A stretch of DNA of 39,689 nucleotides from Deltaproteobacteria bacterium (GTDB taxonomy: Bacteria; Myxococcota_A; Polyangia; JAAYKL01). Shown piece after piece: positions 7,399 through 39,689 of the stretch. Position 1 is the first letter of the stretch. Every line of letters starts with the position of its first letter. The DNA lies in NCBI GenBank assembly GCA_028713995.1, contig JAQTNF010000036.1, positions 1-39,689 of the forward strand, in the 5' to 3' direction. A program made the translations under genes and the position numbers. Under the pieces are notes generated by a model. That model was not told the DNA's origin and did no database searches. It worked only from the letters and a program-made list of their open reading frames with translations.

Positions 7399-8880
7399 TC
7401 ACAGCTTCGTCTTTAAAACGACGATGTCGCCGCTGCCTTGATAGGCGTGGAGCGGGCTCTCGCCGTGCGGGCCGTTCCAAGAAGACCAAGACTCTCCTGC
7501 CACGTAGACGCTTCCTTTCCCGTCGACGGCGATCGAGATGCCATTGTCCTGATTGTCGGATCCGTAGAGCGCATGCCTTTTGTAGGAACCGTTTGAGTCC
7601 AGCTTGAGGACCATGATGTCCCAATATCCAGAAAAGGCATTGAGCGGGCTTTCTCCGTTCGGGCCAGCCCAAGAAATCTTTGAATCGCCTGTCACGTAGA
7701 GATCCCCGCTTCCGTCAAGGGCAAGCGAGCTGCCGCTGTCAGAGCCCGATCCGTAGAACGTGTGCCATTCATAGGCGCCGCTCGAGCTCAGCTTGAGGAT
7801 GTAGACGTCCATAGTTCCCGAGGCATCGGAAAAAACGTGGAGCGGGCTTTCTCCGCCCGGGCCGTTCCAGGAGGCGTTGGAGAACCCTGTCACATAGAGG
7901 TTCTTCTTTCCGTCGACGGCAATCGATTGGACGTTCTCCTCCATGTCGGATCCATAAAACGCATGCCACTGATAGGCTCCGCTCGAGGACAGCTTGAGAA
8001 CAAAGATGTCCATGTTTTCGGAAATGGCGTGGAGCGGGTTTTCTCCGGCCGGGCCATTCCAGGAAAGCCAGGACTCACCGGTCACGTAGAGATCTCCGCT
8101 CTGGTCAACGGCAATCGAATTGCCGTAGTCGCCAGCCTCGGATCCGAAAAACGTATGCCACTGATACGCACCATTCGAATCTAGCTTGAGAACGAGTATG
8201 TCGATGAGCCCAGAGAAGGCGTGGAGCGGACTCTGGCCGCTCGGGCCTGTCCAGGACACTGCAGAGAAGCCTGTCAGGTAAAGGTCTCCTCTTCCGTCGA
8301 TGGCAAGCGAGTCACAGAGGTTGTTGTCGCCGGTTTCGAAGAATGCGTGCCACTTGTACGCACCGCTCGAAGACAGCTTGAGAACGAAAATGTCGAAGTA
8401 TCCCGAGGAGTCGGAAAAGATGTTGAGCGGGCTTTCCCCGCTCGGACCGTTCCAGGAGGCTTCGGAGTAGCCCTTTACGTAGAGGTTCCCGTTGCCGTCG
8501 ACTGCAAGAGAGAGGCCGGAGTCATCGCCGACGGACCCATAGAACGTGTGCCACTCGTAGGTGCCGCTCGAGGACAGCTTGAGAATGAAGATGTCGTTGC
8601 CTCCGGAAAACGGGTGGAGCGGGCCTTCTCCGCTCGGGCCGTTCCAGGAGGCGTTGGAGTACCCTGTCACGTAGAGGTTTCCGCTCTGGTCAACCGCAAG
8701 CGACTTGCTGGAGTCATAGCCGGAAGATCCATAGAACGTGTGCCACCATTCCCCGTCGCTATCGGTATCGCCGTCTGAATCGCTGCCGGTGTCCGAGCCC
8801 GTGCCTGCGTCGTCCTTGCCGGACGAGCTGCCCGAGCACGCGGGCAGGAGCGCGATCAGGAAAAAGAGCGCGTGTCGCAT
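7399..8880 (-). CDS. Lipoprotein with seven SBBP-type beta-propeller repeats
   Basis: About 493 residues from ATG 8880, which has GGAGGGACATCC upstream. The signal peptide ends in a lipobox (LLPAC, Cys15), followed by an Asp/Gly/Ser/Thr linker. The rest is seven repeats of about 62-68 residues, each running from (E/K/Q)WH(T/A)F(Y/F)GS through LA(V/I)DxxG(N/D)LYV(T/K)G and SWNGPxGESPL to D(I/V)(F/M)VLKL(S/D)S(S/N)G. This matches SBBP (seven-bladed beta-propeller) repeats. One repeat per blade would close one propeller. The encoding DNA is itself a tandem repeat of about 190-205 bp. I expect a surface or periplasmic lipoprotein; ligand unknown. An upstream in-frame start at 8958 would place the signal peptide internally and was not used. 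Confidence 0.87.
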
Positions 8881-17380: not shown

Positions 17381-18742
17381 TTACAAACCTCCGGAGGCTT
17401 CCCCCAAAGCGCGTCGGATCGTTCCGGCCATTCCCCGCACCGAAAAAGGTTTCATCAGAAACTGGCGAATTCCCGTGGCCCGCGTGTTGTTCTCATCCGC
17501 CTTCTCGCGACACCCCGTACAAAGGATGATCGGAATATCCGGCCGAATGCGCAAAAGTTCATCGGCCAATCTCGTCCCGGTCATCCGCGGCATGGTCTGA
17601 TCGGTGATAACCAAATCAAACAGCCCGGGATCCTTTCGGAACAGGGCCAAGGCCTCCGCGCCGTCCGTCTCTGTCACGACCTTGTAACCCAGCCGCTCCA
17701 AAATGTTCCGGACGCTTTCAAGCTGAACTTCCTCATCGTCCACCAAGAGAATGCGCTCATGGCCCATGGGAAGATCGAGAGCTCCCGAGGACGCATACGA
17801 TGGAGAACCTTCGGGCTCCACCTGAGGAAAGAAGATATTGAAGGTCGATCCCTTGCCCACCTCGCTGCAGACCGTGATCGCTCCTCCATGACTCCTGACA
17901 ATCCCATGGACCACAGCCAAGCCCATCCCCGAACCTTGCCCGGGCTTCTTGGTCGTAAAGAAAGGATCAAAGATCCGCTCCATCGCTTCACGCGCAATCC
18001 CCGTCCCCGTATCCGCCACGGTCAACCGCAGGTAAGGTCCGGGCTTGAGATCCGGATGGCGCCACGCCAGTTCCGTATCCACCTCCACCCCCGCCAAATC
18101 CACACTCATCACACCGCCCTGTTCCTTCATGGCGTAAACCGCATTGCTGCAAAGGTTCATGACCACCTGATGGAGCTGGGCCGGGTCCGCCAGAATGTCC
18201 CTCGTTTCCTCGTGGACATCCTCACGAATCTCGATCGTGCCGGACAAGGAAGCGCGAAGAATATCAAGGGCCTCCCTTATGACCGGCGCGGCCTTTGTCG
18301 GCCTTCGCTCACACTCTTTTCGCCGGCTGAAAGCGGTGATTTGTTTGACGAGATTCTTCCCCCTCTCGGCCGCTTCGAGCGTCATCTCCAGAAGGCGACG
18401 CATCTGAGGCTCCAGGTGGGCGTCGAGGAGGACCAGCTCCGTATTGATGTAGATCGGGTTCAGAATATTATTGAAATCGTGCACGATCCCACCGGCCAAT
18501 GTCTCCAATGCCTCCATCTTCTGTATCTGCCGCACGTGCTGCTCAACCCTGGCTTGGTGGGCCACGTCCCGCTCGACCGCCTCGGCCGGCTCCGCGCCCG
18601 GGCGCTTTCTGTTCCCGCTTTTGAGATGGACGTTCTTCCCGGCGGGCGGCGGTTTTCGCCCTTCGGGCTGCTTGGGCTTTTTCTCGCGGTCGTTCACGAA
18701 TGGAATCCCTGACTCGGTTCCGCCGGGACCTCCCGGGTTCAA
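17381..18742 (-). CDS. Soluble hybrid histidine kinase (HisKA-HATPase-receiver)
   Basis: About 453 residues. A basic, disordered N-terminus (1-60) precedes a coiled stretch, then the H-box [18 protein letters not shown] (His88), ATPase motifs [11 protein letters not shown] (N box), [18 protein letters not shown] and [11 protein letters not shown]-terminal receiver follows (from about 328) with ILLVDDEE, Asp381 in LVITDQTMP and LMKPFS. There is no membrane helix or PAS domain, so sensing must come from partners or the N-terminus. The DNA is visibly less GC-rich than neighbouring hflX. The TTG at 18742 is the longest start; GTG 18697 is an alternative. It lies 30 bp downstream of the receiver-less sigma-54 activator and may feed phosphate to the 20.8-22.3 kb regulator. 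Confidence 0.85.
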
Positions 18743-18772: not shown

Positions 18773-19798
18773 CTAGGAGCACACGAGAGTTTGCTTGCCG
18801 CCGATGACGCCATAGCTCTTGAGCTTGCGGTACAGCGTCGCCGAGCCGATCCGGAGCTGCTCGGCCGTGCGCCGCTGGTTCCCGCTGTTCATTTCCAGCG
18901 CCGCGAGGATGTGCTCCTTCTCGACCTCATCGAGCGGCCGAGCCGTTCCCCTGATGACCACGGGCGGGGAAAACGTTTCGCGGATCTCCTCGGGCAGATC
19001 CTCGAGGTCCACGCGATTCGAGCGCGCGAGCGCCACGGCGCGCTCCATGGCGTTCTCGAGCTCGCGCACGTTGCCCGGCCATTCGTAGCGCAGGAGCTGG
19101 TCCGCGGCGCCCGGGGTGAGGCCGGAGATCTTGCGCCCCATCCGGGTCGCCGCGTCCGCGAGCAGCACCCGCGCGAGCGGCAGGACGTCGTCCCTGCGAT
19201 CGCGCAGCGGCGGAACCTGCAGCTCCACCACCTTGAGCCGGTAGTAGAGATCCTGCCTGAACGCGCCGCCGGCGACCCCGTGAGAGAGGTCGCGGTTCGT
19301 GGCGGCCACGACCCGCACGTCCACCGGCCGGCTCTTGTTCTCCCCGACGCGACGGATCTCCCGCTCCTGGAGCACCCGCAGGAGCTTGACCTGCATGCCC
19401 GGCGAAATCTCGCCGATCTCGTCGAGGAGCAGCGTCCCGTGATTGGCGGCCTCGAAAAGGCCGGGCCGATCCGAGGCCGCGCCGGTGAACGCGCCGCGCG
19501 CGTGCCCGAACAGCTCGCTCTCGAGGAGCGTCTCGGTGATGGCCCCGCAGTTGATTGCGATGAACGGACCCGCGGCGCGCGTGGACTCCTCGTGAAGGAG
19601 CCGCGCGATGCGTTCCTTGCCCGAGCCGCTCTCGCCGGTGATGAGGACCGTGGCGTCGACCTTGGCCACGCGGCGCGTCAGGTCCACGACCTGCTGCATC
19701 CTGTCGCTCTTGGCGACGATCCCGTCCGGCTCTTCCGCGTGCTGCGCCACGAGGGCCAATGCCCGGCGATCGGTCGACGGCAGAATCCAGGAGTTCAT
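18773..19798 (-). CDS. Sigma-54 activator lacking a receiver domain
   Basis: 341 residues: only about 25 residues precede the AAA+ domain, so no receiver, GAF or PAS sensor is present. Walker A GESGSGKE (55-62), GAFTGA (102-107), [14 protein letters not shown] and the sensor II region [12 protein letters not shown] are intact. A Fis-type helix-turn-helix ends the protein ([20 protein letters not shown]). ATG 19798 has AAAAGGAGATGAATC upstream, so the short N-terminus looks genuine rather than a missed start. Such activators can be constitutive or controlled by a separate anti-activator or partner, as with PspF. It lies 75 bp downstream of the phasin-like gene and 30 bp upstream of the hybrid kinase gene. 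Confidence 0.9.
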
Positions 19799-19873: not shown

Positions 19874-20164
19874 CTACTTCCCTGCTCGAGCTTGAGGGGG
19901 GTCCCCTGCGTCGAATTGCCGCTCCAGCATGTTGAGTCCCCCGTCGACGAAGTTGAGATAGCTCGTACGAATCTTGTTGGCCTGCTCCATCCAGGCCGAC
20001 GCGATCTCCCGCGTTCTGTCTTGCGCGGTCTTCATGTTGTTCATCGCGAAATCGACGTTTTTCGCGACCTGATCTTGGAAGAAATCCATGTTCTTCACGC
20101 CGTTCTCGACAGTCGCGCGGGCTATCGTGAACATGTCACCCATCATCTTTTCCTGGTTTTTCAT
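19874..20164 (-). CDS. Phasin-like small helical protein
   Basis: 96 residues, almost wholly amphipathic helix with no Cys: MKNQEKMMGDMFTIARATVE, then NMDFFQDQVAKNVDFAMNNM, REIASAWMEQANKIRTSYLN and FVDGGLNMLERQF. This spacing of Phe/Met/Ala with Gln/Asn resembles phasins, which coat polyhydroxyalkanoate granules, though other coiled-coil proteins look similar. ATG 20164 has AGGAGAAAGGATCTCGCG upstream. A near-consensus sigma-54 promoter lies at 20228-20243, giving a leader of about 50 bases. It is followed by the receiver-less activator and hybrid kinase on the same strand. No PHA synthase is in the window, so the granule role is inference. Confidence 0.6.
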   Translation of the reverse strand: MKNQEKMMGDMFTIARATVENGVKNMDFFQDQVAKNVDFAMNNMKTAQDRTREIASAWMEQANKIRTSYLNFVDGGLNMLERQFDAGDPPQARAGK

Positions 20165-20227
20165 CGCGAGATCCTTTCTCCTTTGGTGTGTCTGTTGACC
20201 ACGTGTTGTCGAACAACCCGCTGGCGC

Positions 20228-20243
20228 AGCAATATCCATGCCG
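20228..20243 (-). promoter_or_regulatory. Sigma-54 (-24/-12) promoter of the phasin-like gene
   Basis: Read on the minus strand, CGGCATGGATATTGCT has GG and GC separated by exactly 10 bases, with CGGCATG for the -24 element and TTGCT for the -12 (consensus TGGCACG-N4-TTGCW). Transcription would start near 20217, about 50 bases before ATG 20164. The surrounding 26 bp (20219-20244) recur exactly at 20779-20804, ahead of another small gene. The conserved copy in a second suitable place makes chance unlikely. Confidence 0.75.
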
Positions 20244-20350
20244 CGGTTCGCCATGCTGAAAGCGTGCGCCAAACAGCCGCATTATTCGAAGGCGACCGAG
20301 TCACGACTGAACAGTTGGCCAGAACAAGAACCGCCAATCCGCTATTGGCC

Positions 20351-20410
20351 TGTTCCGCCGGGCAGGACTTGAGTCCTGCCGGGCAAGACTTCCATGAGAT
20401 GAGCGGAACA
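20351..20410. promoter_or_regulatory. Nested inverted repeats: candidate enhancer (upstream activating sequence)
   Basis: The core is a palindrome with 9-bp arms, GGCAGGACT-TG-AGTCCTGCC (20361-20380). It is enclosed by TGTTCCGC (20351-20358) and its complement GCGGAACA (20403-20410). It lies about 140-190 bp upstream of the predicted phasin start point, a usual distance for NtrC-type enhancer sites. It is also 26-85 bp downstream of the Cys-rich gene stop, so a terminator is the alternative. However, no T tract follows the core on the minus strand, which favours protein binding. Confidence 0.5.
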
Positions 20411-20435
20411 GCGTTTCCGGCAGGAGCGGCCGACA

Positions 20436-20708
20436 TCAGTCGAGGGGCGCGGTCGATGTGGGGGCATCGAACATCGCGGTGGGCTTACAATTCGCGGCGA
20501 TCATCAGGTAGAGGGCCACGTTACAGGCGTAGCGCGCCTGGCACTCGCTCCCGGGGAATTTCTTCACCTCGCCGACGAGGTTCCGGTCGCCGGTCGCGGC
20601 CAGCACGATGATGAGGCACTCCTTGCAGTATGGGAATCCGGCCAGCTCCGCGATCGCCGGGTCCCCGCACCGGGCGCACGAGCAAGGGATCATCTTTTCG
20701 ACGTGCAT
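20436..20708 (-). CDS. Small Cys-rich protein, probable metal binder
   Basis: 90 residues with eight cysteines: CSCARC (9, 11, 14), PYCKEC (28, 31), then Cys56, Cys62 and Cys74. The pair C-x2-C (11-14) and C-x2-C (28-31), 13 residues apart, is a likely zinc ribbon or knuckle. A hydrophobic stretch LIIVLAAT follows the second pair. I do not recognise the family. ATG 20708 has GGAGGAAAACAGAT upstream. A sigma-54 promoter at 20788-20803 would give a leader of about 69 bases. It lies between the NtrC-type regulator and the phasin-like gene, all on the minus strand, and shares its promoter sequence with the phasin-like gene, suggesting co-regulation. Confidence 0.7.
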   Translation of the reverse strand: MHVEKMIPCSCARCGDPAIAELAGFPYCKECLIIVLAATGDRNLVGEVKKFPGSECQARYACNVALYLMIAANCKPTAMFDAPTSTAPLD

Positions 20709-20787
20709 ATCTGTTTTCCTCCGCTGCTTGACGCCGTCCGGCCCGAGTGGGCACGCCGGTCGTGTGTTATTGGCCGAGCGCTGGCGC

Positions 20788-20803
20788 AGCAATATCCATG
20801 CCG
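20788..20803 (-). promoter_or_regulatory. Sigma-54 (-24/-12) promoter of the small Cys-rich gene
   Basis: The same 16 bases as at 20228-20243 on the minus strand: CGGCATG, GATA, TTGCT, with the invariant GG-N10-GC spacing. The exact match covers 26 bp (20779-20804). Flanking sequence differs, so the promoter alone is shared and not a larger duplication. Predicted start near 20777. It sits 45 bp after the stop of the NtrC-type regulator gene. Confidence 0.75.
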
Positions 20804-20848
20804 CCTTGCGCGCGGCCAAAGGCCGGGCTCAATCAATCGATCACGGCG

Positions 20849-22270
20849 CTAGTTTTTTCGCATGTGAGGCGTGACGATGCGGTGTTTCTTGAGCAATGTG
20901 TAGAGGCGGGAGCGGGACAGACCGGAGATCTCACAGGCCTCGGGTATGTCGCCTTGCGTATGGGAAAGAATTCCGAGCAGATATTTTCGTTCCGCCTCGG
21001 CAACGGCCCGGGTCCGCACATCTTCGAGGTTGGGCATTTTCGCCGCGTCGTCGAACTTCGAAAACGGCGCGTCACCTCCGGCCGGATCGGGCGCGATTGA
21101 TTCCCTGGCGAGTTGCGTGCGGATGTTCAACGGCAGGTCCTTGGGATAAAGCAGCGGATTGCGACCGGCCGAAGCCAGCGCCCGCTCCAAGGCCTGGGTC
21201 AATTCTCGCACGTTGCCTGGCCAGTCATATCTTGCAAGCACGTCGAAGAACTCCGGTGAAACCCCCTTCGTCTCGACACCGTATTGTTCGCACAAGCGTG
21301 CGATGTAGTAGAGCGCCAGGTCTTTGAGATCCTCCTTGCGCTCCCGAAGCGACGGCAGCGGAATGACGAGCGTGCGAAGGCGAAAGAGCAGATCCTCCCG
21401 GAATTGCCCTCTTTCGGCCATGGCGGCCAGATCGCGGTTCGTCGCCGCGACAAGTCTGAAATCGCTTTGTAACTCCTTCTTGCCGCCCACCGGGCGAAAC
21501 CGCCGTTCCTGAAGCACCCGAAGAAATGTCTTTTGTATGCTTTGCGGAAGCTCGCCGACTTCATCGAGGAAAAGCGTGCCCTGATCCGCCTGCGCGACCA
21601 GACCCTCGCGGCTGCGATCCGCCCCGGTATAGGCGCCTTTTTCGTGGCCAAACAGCACGCTCTCCACGAGCGTCTCGGGCAACGCCGAGCAGTCGACGAC
21701 AACGAAGTTCTTGTCCGCGTACGCGCTGTTTTGATGAATCGCCATTGCGAAAAGCTCTTTGCCGGTGCCTGACTCCCCGGTGATCAGGACATTGGCGCTG
21801 CTGCCGGCGGCCTGTGCCACGAGATCCAAGCTCTCGCCGATCACCGTGCTTCTGCCGATGATCCTTTCGCGCTTCAGCGCCACCGCCAGCTGGCGATTCT
21901 TCTTCTCTTCCTGGTATTGCAGAGCGCGAGTGACAAGCAGCGTGATGTCCTTCGCCGAGGAAGGTTTTTGGATGTAATCCCAGGCTCCGTTCTTTATCGC
22001 CAACTCCGCGCCGTCCGGATCGCCGAAGCCGGTCATGATGATCACTTCCGTAAGGGGAGCGTTCCTGCGGATTCGCGGCAGGAGATCCAGACCGCTTCCG
22101 TCCGGCAGGCGCACGTCCAGCAAAACGACGTCGAATTTGTTCGCATTGGCCGCCCCGGAGCCTTGTTCGAGCGTAAAAGCGCTCGACACGTCGTGCCCCA
22201 TCCGCCTGATGACCGCGGTAATCGATTCGCAATTCGCCTTGTCGTCGTCGATGATGAGTACGTTCGCCAT
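20849..22270 (-). CDS. Sigma-54-dependent response regulator, NtrC family (GAYTGA variant)
   Basis: 473 residues from ATG 22270. The receiver has LIIDDD, phospho-acceptor Asp52 in VVLLDVRLPDGSG and QKPSS. The AAA+ domain has Walker A GESGTGKE (165-172), the sigma-54 loop as GAYTGA (212-217, Tyr for Phe), DEVGE, ATNRDLAAM and [13 protein letters not shown] Fis-type helix-turn-helix is at the C-terminus (GDIPEACEISGLSRSRLYTL). Base composition is lower in GC than most of the window. It is the likely regulator of the three sigma-54 promoters around it and the likely phosphate acceptor of the nearby hybrid kinase. Both links are inferred from position. An in-frame TTG at 22291 is a weaker start. 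Confidence 0.9.
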   Translation of the reverse strand: MANVLIIDDDKANCESITAVIRRMGHDVSSAFTLEQGSGAANANKFDVVLLDVRLPDGSGLDLLPRIRRNAPLTEVIIMTGFGDPDGAELAIKNGAWDYIQKPSSAKDITLLVTRALQYQEEKKNRQLAVALKRERIIGRSTVIGESLDLVAQAAGSSANVLITGESGTGKELFAMAIHQNSAYADKNFVVVDCSALPETLVESVLFGHEKGAYTGADRSREGLVAQADQGTLFLDEVGELPQSIQKTFLRVLQERRFRPVGGKKELQSDFRLVAATNRDLAAMAERGQFREDLLFRLRTLVIPLPSLRERKEDLKDLALYYIARLCEQYGVETKGVSPEFFDVLARYDWPGNVRELTQALERALASAGRNPLLYPKDLPLNIRTQLARESIAPDPAGGDAPFSKFDDAAKMPNLEDVRTRAVAEAERKYLLGILSHTQGDIPEACEISGLSRSRLYTLLKKHRIVTPHMRKN

Positions 22271-22355: not shown

Positions 22356-22371
22356 TGGCTCGTTTTTTGCT
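22356..22371 (+). promoter_or_regulatory. Sigma-54 (-24/-12) promoter of the pseudo-receiver gene
   Basis: TGGCTCG, TTTT, TTGCT: one base from the -24 consensus TGGCACG, and a full match to TTGCW, with the exact GG-N10-GC spacing. Predicted start near 22382, about 35 bases before ATG 22417. It lies in the AT-rich spacer between the divergent NtrC-type regulator and the small gene at 22417. It is the best consensus match of the three in this block. Confidence 0.75.
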
Positions 22372-22416: not shown

Positions 22417-22854
22417 ATGCCGATGACGATGAACTACCTCTATGCCCCGGAATCGATTGGCGACGGTGAATCCATTTTGAAGGAAATACGCGAAATCGTC
22501 GGCGACGATGACGGGATCGAGATGTTTCGCGATTCGATGTCATTGTCGATGAGGTTGAGGCGCCTCGACAACCGCAACGTGGGCTTTGTCGTGATTCTTG
22601 CAACGAAGAGGAAAGACCTCCTGGACATCATCTCCATTTGCGAGGGTTTCCACTCCGCCGACATCGTCCTTCTGGTGCCGGACGGGGAGCAGGCGACCGT
22701 CACGCTGGCGCATCTTCTCAGGCCCAGATTTTTCGGAAGAATGAACCGAGACTTGCCCAACGCCCTGAACGTTTTGAGAAAACTGCATAAAAAGAATGAA
22801 GAGAATCAATCGGATGAGTGGGCTGCCGTTGGAACCGCAGGGAAGAACATCTGA
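22417..22854 (+). CDS. Receiver-like protein without a phospho-acceptor (pseudo-receiver)
   Basis: 145 residues. The pattern of beta strands and helices follows a receiver domain: MNYLYAPE, a long helix (ILKEIREIVGDDDGIEMFRD), NVGFVVILATKRKDLLDIIS, ADIVLLVPDGEQ and FFGRMNRDLPNALNVLRKLH. The strand where Asp should be phosphorylated reads FVVILATKRK, with no Asp, and no early acidic pair is present. I therefore expect a protein-interaction module rather than a phosphorelay step. Three in-frame ATGs (22417, 22423, 22429) are possible; none has a strong ribosome site. It diverges from the NtrC-type regulator and has its own sigma-54 promoter. The fold assignment is tentative. Confidence 0.6.
   Translation: MPMTMNYLYAPESIGDGESILKEIREIVGDDDGIEMFRDSMSLSMRLRRLDNRNVGFVVILATKRKDLLDIISICEGFHSADIVLLVPDGEQATVTLAHLLRPRFFGRMNRDLPNALNVLRKLHKKNEENQSDEWAAVGTAGKNI

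Positions 22855-35883: not shown

Positions 35884-39689
<3,806 letters not shown>

Follow-up and report, generated by a model that had tools for sequence, protein, structure and literature searches.

In Myxococcus xanthus, the genes nla28S and nla28 form an autoregulated kinase/activator operon (PMC9765219), and Myxococcota generally have many sigma-54 activators (PMC12316311). For phasins, RpoN is reported to regulate phaF negatively in Pseudomonas putida (PMC9049629), and regulation in Ralstonia eutropha is by PhaR, which is not known to act as an ATPase activator (PMC12849132). Here we describe a locus in a 39,689-nucleotide stretch of DNA from Deltaproteobacteria bacterium (the window) that resembles nla28S–nla28 in that genes for a kinase and for activators lie close to sigma-54 promoters, with probable autoregulation. 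It differs in having two promoters identical over 26 bp and in its targets, which are a phasin-like gene, an ORFan and the gene for a conserved protein, p145; moreover, no activator-binding repeats were found at the locus. As in the phaF and PhaR cases, a phasin-type gene appears to be under dedicated regulatory control; unlike in those cases, the phasin-like gene is immediately preceded by a putative sigma-54 promoter and stands outside a PHA synthase operon. The sigma-54 machinery itself is well known. The two promoters, P1 and P2, provide a clean natural case in which a core promoter was apparently copied next to unrelated genes, and suggest a route for wiring an orphan gene into an existing switch. 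In addition, the locus points to a conserved, uncharacterised pair formed by the activator EBP1 and p145, and the local regulon seems to include the phasin-like gene.

On the minus strand EBP1 comes first, followed by P1, the Cys-rich ORFan, P2, the phasin-like gene, EBP2 and a hybrid histidine kinase. The features of the locus are as follows.

17381–18742, minus strand: hybrid histidine kinase (HisKA, HATPase, receiver)
18773–19798, minus strand: EBP2, sigma-54 activator (AAA+ with GAFTGA, Fis-type HTH, no N-terminal sensing domain)
19874–20164, minus strand: phasin-like protein of 96 aa, predicted to form a helical hairpin; its relatives adjoin PHA-synthesis genes
20219–20244, minus strand: P2, very likely a sigma-54 core promoter (26-mer copy 2), ahead of the phasin-like gene; predicted start ~20217
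20361–20380, no strand: 20-bp palindrome GGCAGGACTTGAGTCCTGCC, found once in the genome; lies between the Cys-rich gene and P2
20436–20708, minus strand: Cys-rich protein, 90 aa, ORFan (CxC-x2-C...C-x2-C)
20779–20804, minus strand: P1, very likely a sigma-54 core promoter (26-mer copy 1), ahead of the Cys-rich gene; predicted start ~20777
20849–22270, minus strand: EBP1, activator (receiver domain, sigma-54 AAA+ with GAYTGA, Fis-type HTH)
22356–22371, plus strand: P3, third sigma-54-like promoter, TGGCTCGTTTTTTGCT, found by a scan of the window; ahead of p145
22429–22854, plus strand: p145, conserved protein, divergent from EBP1; true start probably the ATG at 22429

Two identical putative core promoters

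The sequence GCGGCATGGATATTGCTGCGCCAGCG occurs at 20219–20244 and 20779–20804 with exact identity over 26 bp, both copies lying on the minus strand, 560 bp apart. The bases adjoining it differ between the copies on either side, and the similarity of the upstream flanks is not above chance (P = 0.37 and 0.56). This comparison bears out the exact duplication with differing flanks described in an earlier note on this DNA, and a longer duplication of the neighbourhood was rejected because the flanks lack similarity. A peptide common to the N-termini of both genes was likewise rejected as the source of the identity, since the spacings to the ATG differ by 16 nt, which is not divisible by three. With up to three mismatches allowed, the 26-mer has only two copies in its own 4.98-Mb genome and none in the 317 other genomes of the class. 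The earlier note had held that dozens of copies inside genes would speak for a dispersed repeat, and had expected the 26-mer to define a genome-wide regulon. With two copies in the genome, not many at random positions, a dispersed repeat was rejected, and the 26-mer does not define such a regulon. As exact 26-bp pairs of this kind are expected about 7e-6 times per window at the window's base composition, it is highly improbable that the pair is a chance match or dispersed repeat and not two promoters. A search for known structured RNAs gave a single match, below threshold.

Each copy contains CGGCATGGATATTGCT on the minus strand with GG-N10-GC, the GG falling at −25/−24 and the GC at −13/−12, and both fit the sigma-54 promoter pattern (GG/GC at −24/−12, 10-bp spacing, TGGCAC-N5-TTGCW-like sequence). 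The 26-mer spans about −27 to −2, the complete core promoter with its melted region, and ends at the start site. P1 begins 95 nt and P2 79 nt before the ATG of a same-strand gene, and ribosome-binding sites are present. The first position is C, not T, as at four of the 36 putative sigma-54 sites of the genome, and both promoters are very GC-rich at −10 to −2.

The host genome encodes one RpoN (single PF04552 match, 2.2e-65) with an intact RpoN box, ARRTVAKYRE. In a scan of the sigma-54 regulon by pattern only, the strict pattern TGGCAN6TTGCW was found 31 times, versus five for the reversed control; 29 of the 31 sites fall between genes, and for 23 a gene on the same strand starts no more than 300 bp away, as counted with a simple gene caller written for this analysis. 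This excess, together with the placement at gene starts, indicates that sigma-54 promoters are common and recognisable in the genome. Genes behind these sites include ones resembling gvpA, nuoE and fliL. A strong sigma-54-like site, TGGCACCCGCCTTGCA, is found ahead of a gvpA-like gas-vesicle gene (C110, ~9890; L052).

Strand, distance, rpoN and the genome-wide sites all fit the proposal of the earlier note that the two copies are sigma-54 promoters ahead of two unrelated small genes, and on this sequence evidence we consider it very likely that both are. P1 and P2 agree at all 26 positions, against at most 20 of 26 for any pair among 36 distinct putative promoters (630 pairs), and column frequencies give a probability of ~1e-9 for an independent match. 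Thus, their identity goes beyond the shared promoter consensus, and appears to reflect recent copying, conversion or joint selection, not consensus alone. Another protein could bind the short dyad GCTGCGCCAGC, located at −14 to −4 in both copies, with selection keeping all 26 bp; the identity does cover the non-consensus positions −10 to −2. However, the dyad is short, close matches to it are common elsewhere in this GC-rich genome, and no third promoter with the dyad was found. Since the dyad is ordinary background and other sigma-54 promoters have unrelated bases at these positions, the further shared site downstream of −12 that had been suspected in the earlier note is unsupported, and we regard a combined promoter and operator as unlikely.

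Genes and regulators of the locus

The Cys-rich protein has no relative in the 318 genomes of the class or in a scan of GTDB contigs. The product of the gene behind P2 falls below the curated Pfam cut-off for phasins (PF09361; E = 0.03, 15 bits versus 24.9; best relative E = 0.0024), and is therefore named phasin-like only. Its predicted structure is a long helical hairpin, with which a fold search returned no significant match, and the GTDB contig scan gave no relatives for this protein. Relatives stand in the order PhaE–PhaC–MaoC–phasin in the same genome (C29) and in G002, with the PHA names assigned by sequence resemblance, not by family search. The cluster in the host genome (L069, 8198–10886, C29) resembles a class III PHA synthase cluster and lacks a sigma-54-like site immediately in front. 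A phasin-like gene in G005 likewise comes after the gene of a receiver-type activator, and TGGCACGATTGTTGTA stands 90 nt before the start of the match; the −12 element of this site is GT, not GC, and the activator is no clear EBP1 orthologue (38%).

Both EBP1 and EBP2 have the hallmarks of the NtrC family, with PF00158 matches at E below 1e-60 each, HTH_8, and GAYTGA in EBP1 or GAFTGA in EBP2. No terminator-like site was detected on the minus strand between the phasin-like gene and EBP2. Given this and the short gaps, the phasin-like gene, EBP2 and the histidine kinase likely form one operon.

p145 belongs to a family with no match in PDB, Pfam or NCBIfam, and is possibly a partner of the activator EBP1. 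Relatives of p145 occur in seven other genomes of the class, and EBP1 orthologues adjoin p145 in six (G227, G013, G011, G002, G193 and G009). Across the aligned part, these orthologues share 54–63% identity with EBP1; the one in G013 is truncated at a contig edge, and the recognition-helix region is similar among those of full length. A sigma-54-like site lies 68–78 nt (about 72) before the start of six of nine p145 genes, namely those in the window, G013, G004 (two copies), G011 and G227, against a background of 2.8e-4 per position. With promoter scores taken from a hand-made consensus matrix, the site of the window reaches 16.9 and those of two relatives 15.3 and 15.7, and three are weak (11.3–11.6). 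P3 and the conserved EBP1/p145 pair, overlooked in the earlier note, define the local regulon better than the 26-mer does.

Near p145 in G004, G011 and G013 (L096, L098 and L095), sigma-54-like sites also occur ahead of SPFH (hflK/hflC-like) genes and ahead of a small membrane protein resembling DUF2892, which hints at an envelope-related regulon.

Proposed circuit and candidate activators

The EBP1 orthologue of G009 comes after a kinase gene whose end it overlaps, and the product of this kinase gene shares 46% identity with the window's kinase over 395 aa. This adjacency and this identity suggest that the window's histidine kinase is probably the partner of EBP1. Based on these findings, we propose as the probable arrangement that P1 and P2 are duplicate core promoters of a local EBP1-centred regulon, running from the kinase through EBP1 to P1, P2 and P3. 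A signal would act on the histidine kinase to yield phosphorylated EBP1, which, bound at nearby enhancer sites, would hydrolyse ATP to open the RNA polymerase–sigma-54 complexes waiting at the promoters. The outputs would be the Cys-rich protein from P1, the phasin-like protein, EBP2 and the kinase from P2, and p145 from P3. Because P2 would carry the kinase, the loop would be self-reinforcing, with positive feedback through kinase expression, which is also reported for nla28S–nla28 (PMC9765219). The data thus support a local, EBP1-centred regulon, and give no support to a genome-wide one defined by the 26-mer.

Two putative activator genes, EBP1 and EBP2, adjoin P1 and P2. Sigma-54 activators work at a distance through DNA looping, so that P1 and P2, 560 bp apart, could use one enhancer. 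Local alignment, k-mer comparison and Gibbs sampling revealed no motif common to P1–P3 and five upstream regions from relatives above the level of shuffled sequences. The palindrome at 20361–20380 is a candidate enhancer, or else a candidate RNA hairpin. Several points count against the EBP1 model, namely the lack of an enhancer motif in these searches, the equal proximity of EBP2 as a candidate activator, the C at the first position and the GC-rich −10 to −2 of P1 and P2, the weakness of three of the six sites before p145, the differences in G005, and the reliance of the promoter scores on a hand-made matrix. EBP2, or a distant activator, might instead drive P1 and P2 as sigma-54 promoters, leaving EBP1 with p145 and genes outside the locus as its only targets. 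The GAFTGA motif of EBP2 is intact, and EBP2 lies within the likely P2 operon, where it could autoregulate directly; moreover, of the genomes in which p145 and EBP1 are paired, most are without the phasin-like gene and none has the Cys-rich one. However, the kinase in this same likely operon resembles the EBP1-paired kinase of G009, and the EBP1 gene lies directly upstream of P1. We therefore consider control by EBP2 or a distant activator a real but less probable rival, and retain EBP1 as the probable activator of all three promoters.

Origin of the second copy

The dissimilar flanks imply either that the core promoter alone was copied or that an ORFan-bearing stretch came between two copies. 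In the EBP1-centred model, one core promoter would have been copied, or converted, within the locus; P1 and P2 would be identical for that reason, and a lineage-specific gene would have come under the same control. The alternative that the repeats are an insertion scar, in which an inserted stretch of ~534 bp carrying the ORFan has a long target duplication or a recombination site on its two sides and the promoter likeness is minor, would account for the placing of the Cys-rich ORFan precisely between direct repeats whose flanks are unrelated. Yet the limits of the repeat are those of the sigma-54 core promoter (−27 to −2), and each copy has the spacing to its gene that a promoter should have; ~534 bp leaves no space for a transposase, the base composition of the stretch between the two 26-mers is unremarkable, and an empty site was seen in no close relative. 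Such a scar is hence a poor explanation, and copying of the core promoter is our tentative reading. Recombination between the direct repeats would be predicted to remove the ORFan, so that the phasin-like gene would keep a single intact promoter.

More speculatively, core promoters may spread within a locus as enhancer-free modules of ~26 bp (−27 to −2), in this case recruiting a newborn ORFan to an activator already in place, with EBP1 and p145 as an uncharacterised signalling pair of this class in which p145 modulates the activator; we put this forward as a tentative idea with a limited chance of being right.

Two further repeats were noted in the window. A 25-bp exact repeat (7858–7882 and 8635–8659) lies in a putative lipoprotein gene and is probably an internal protein repeat, and a tandem repeat at 37490–37620 belongs to a gene for a lipoprotein-like product with abundant D, T, G and S.
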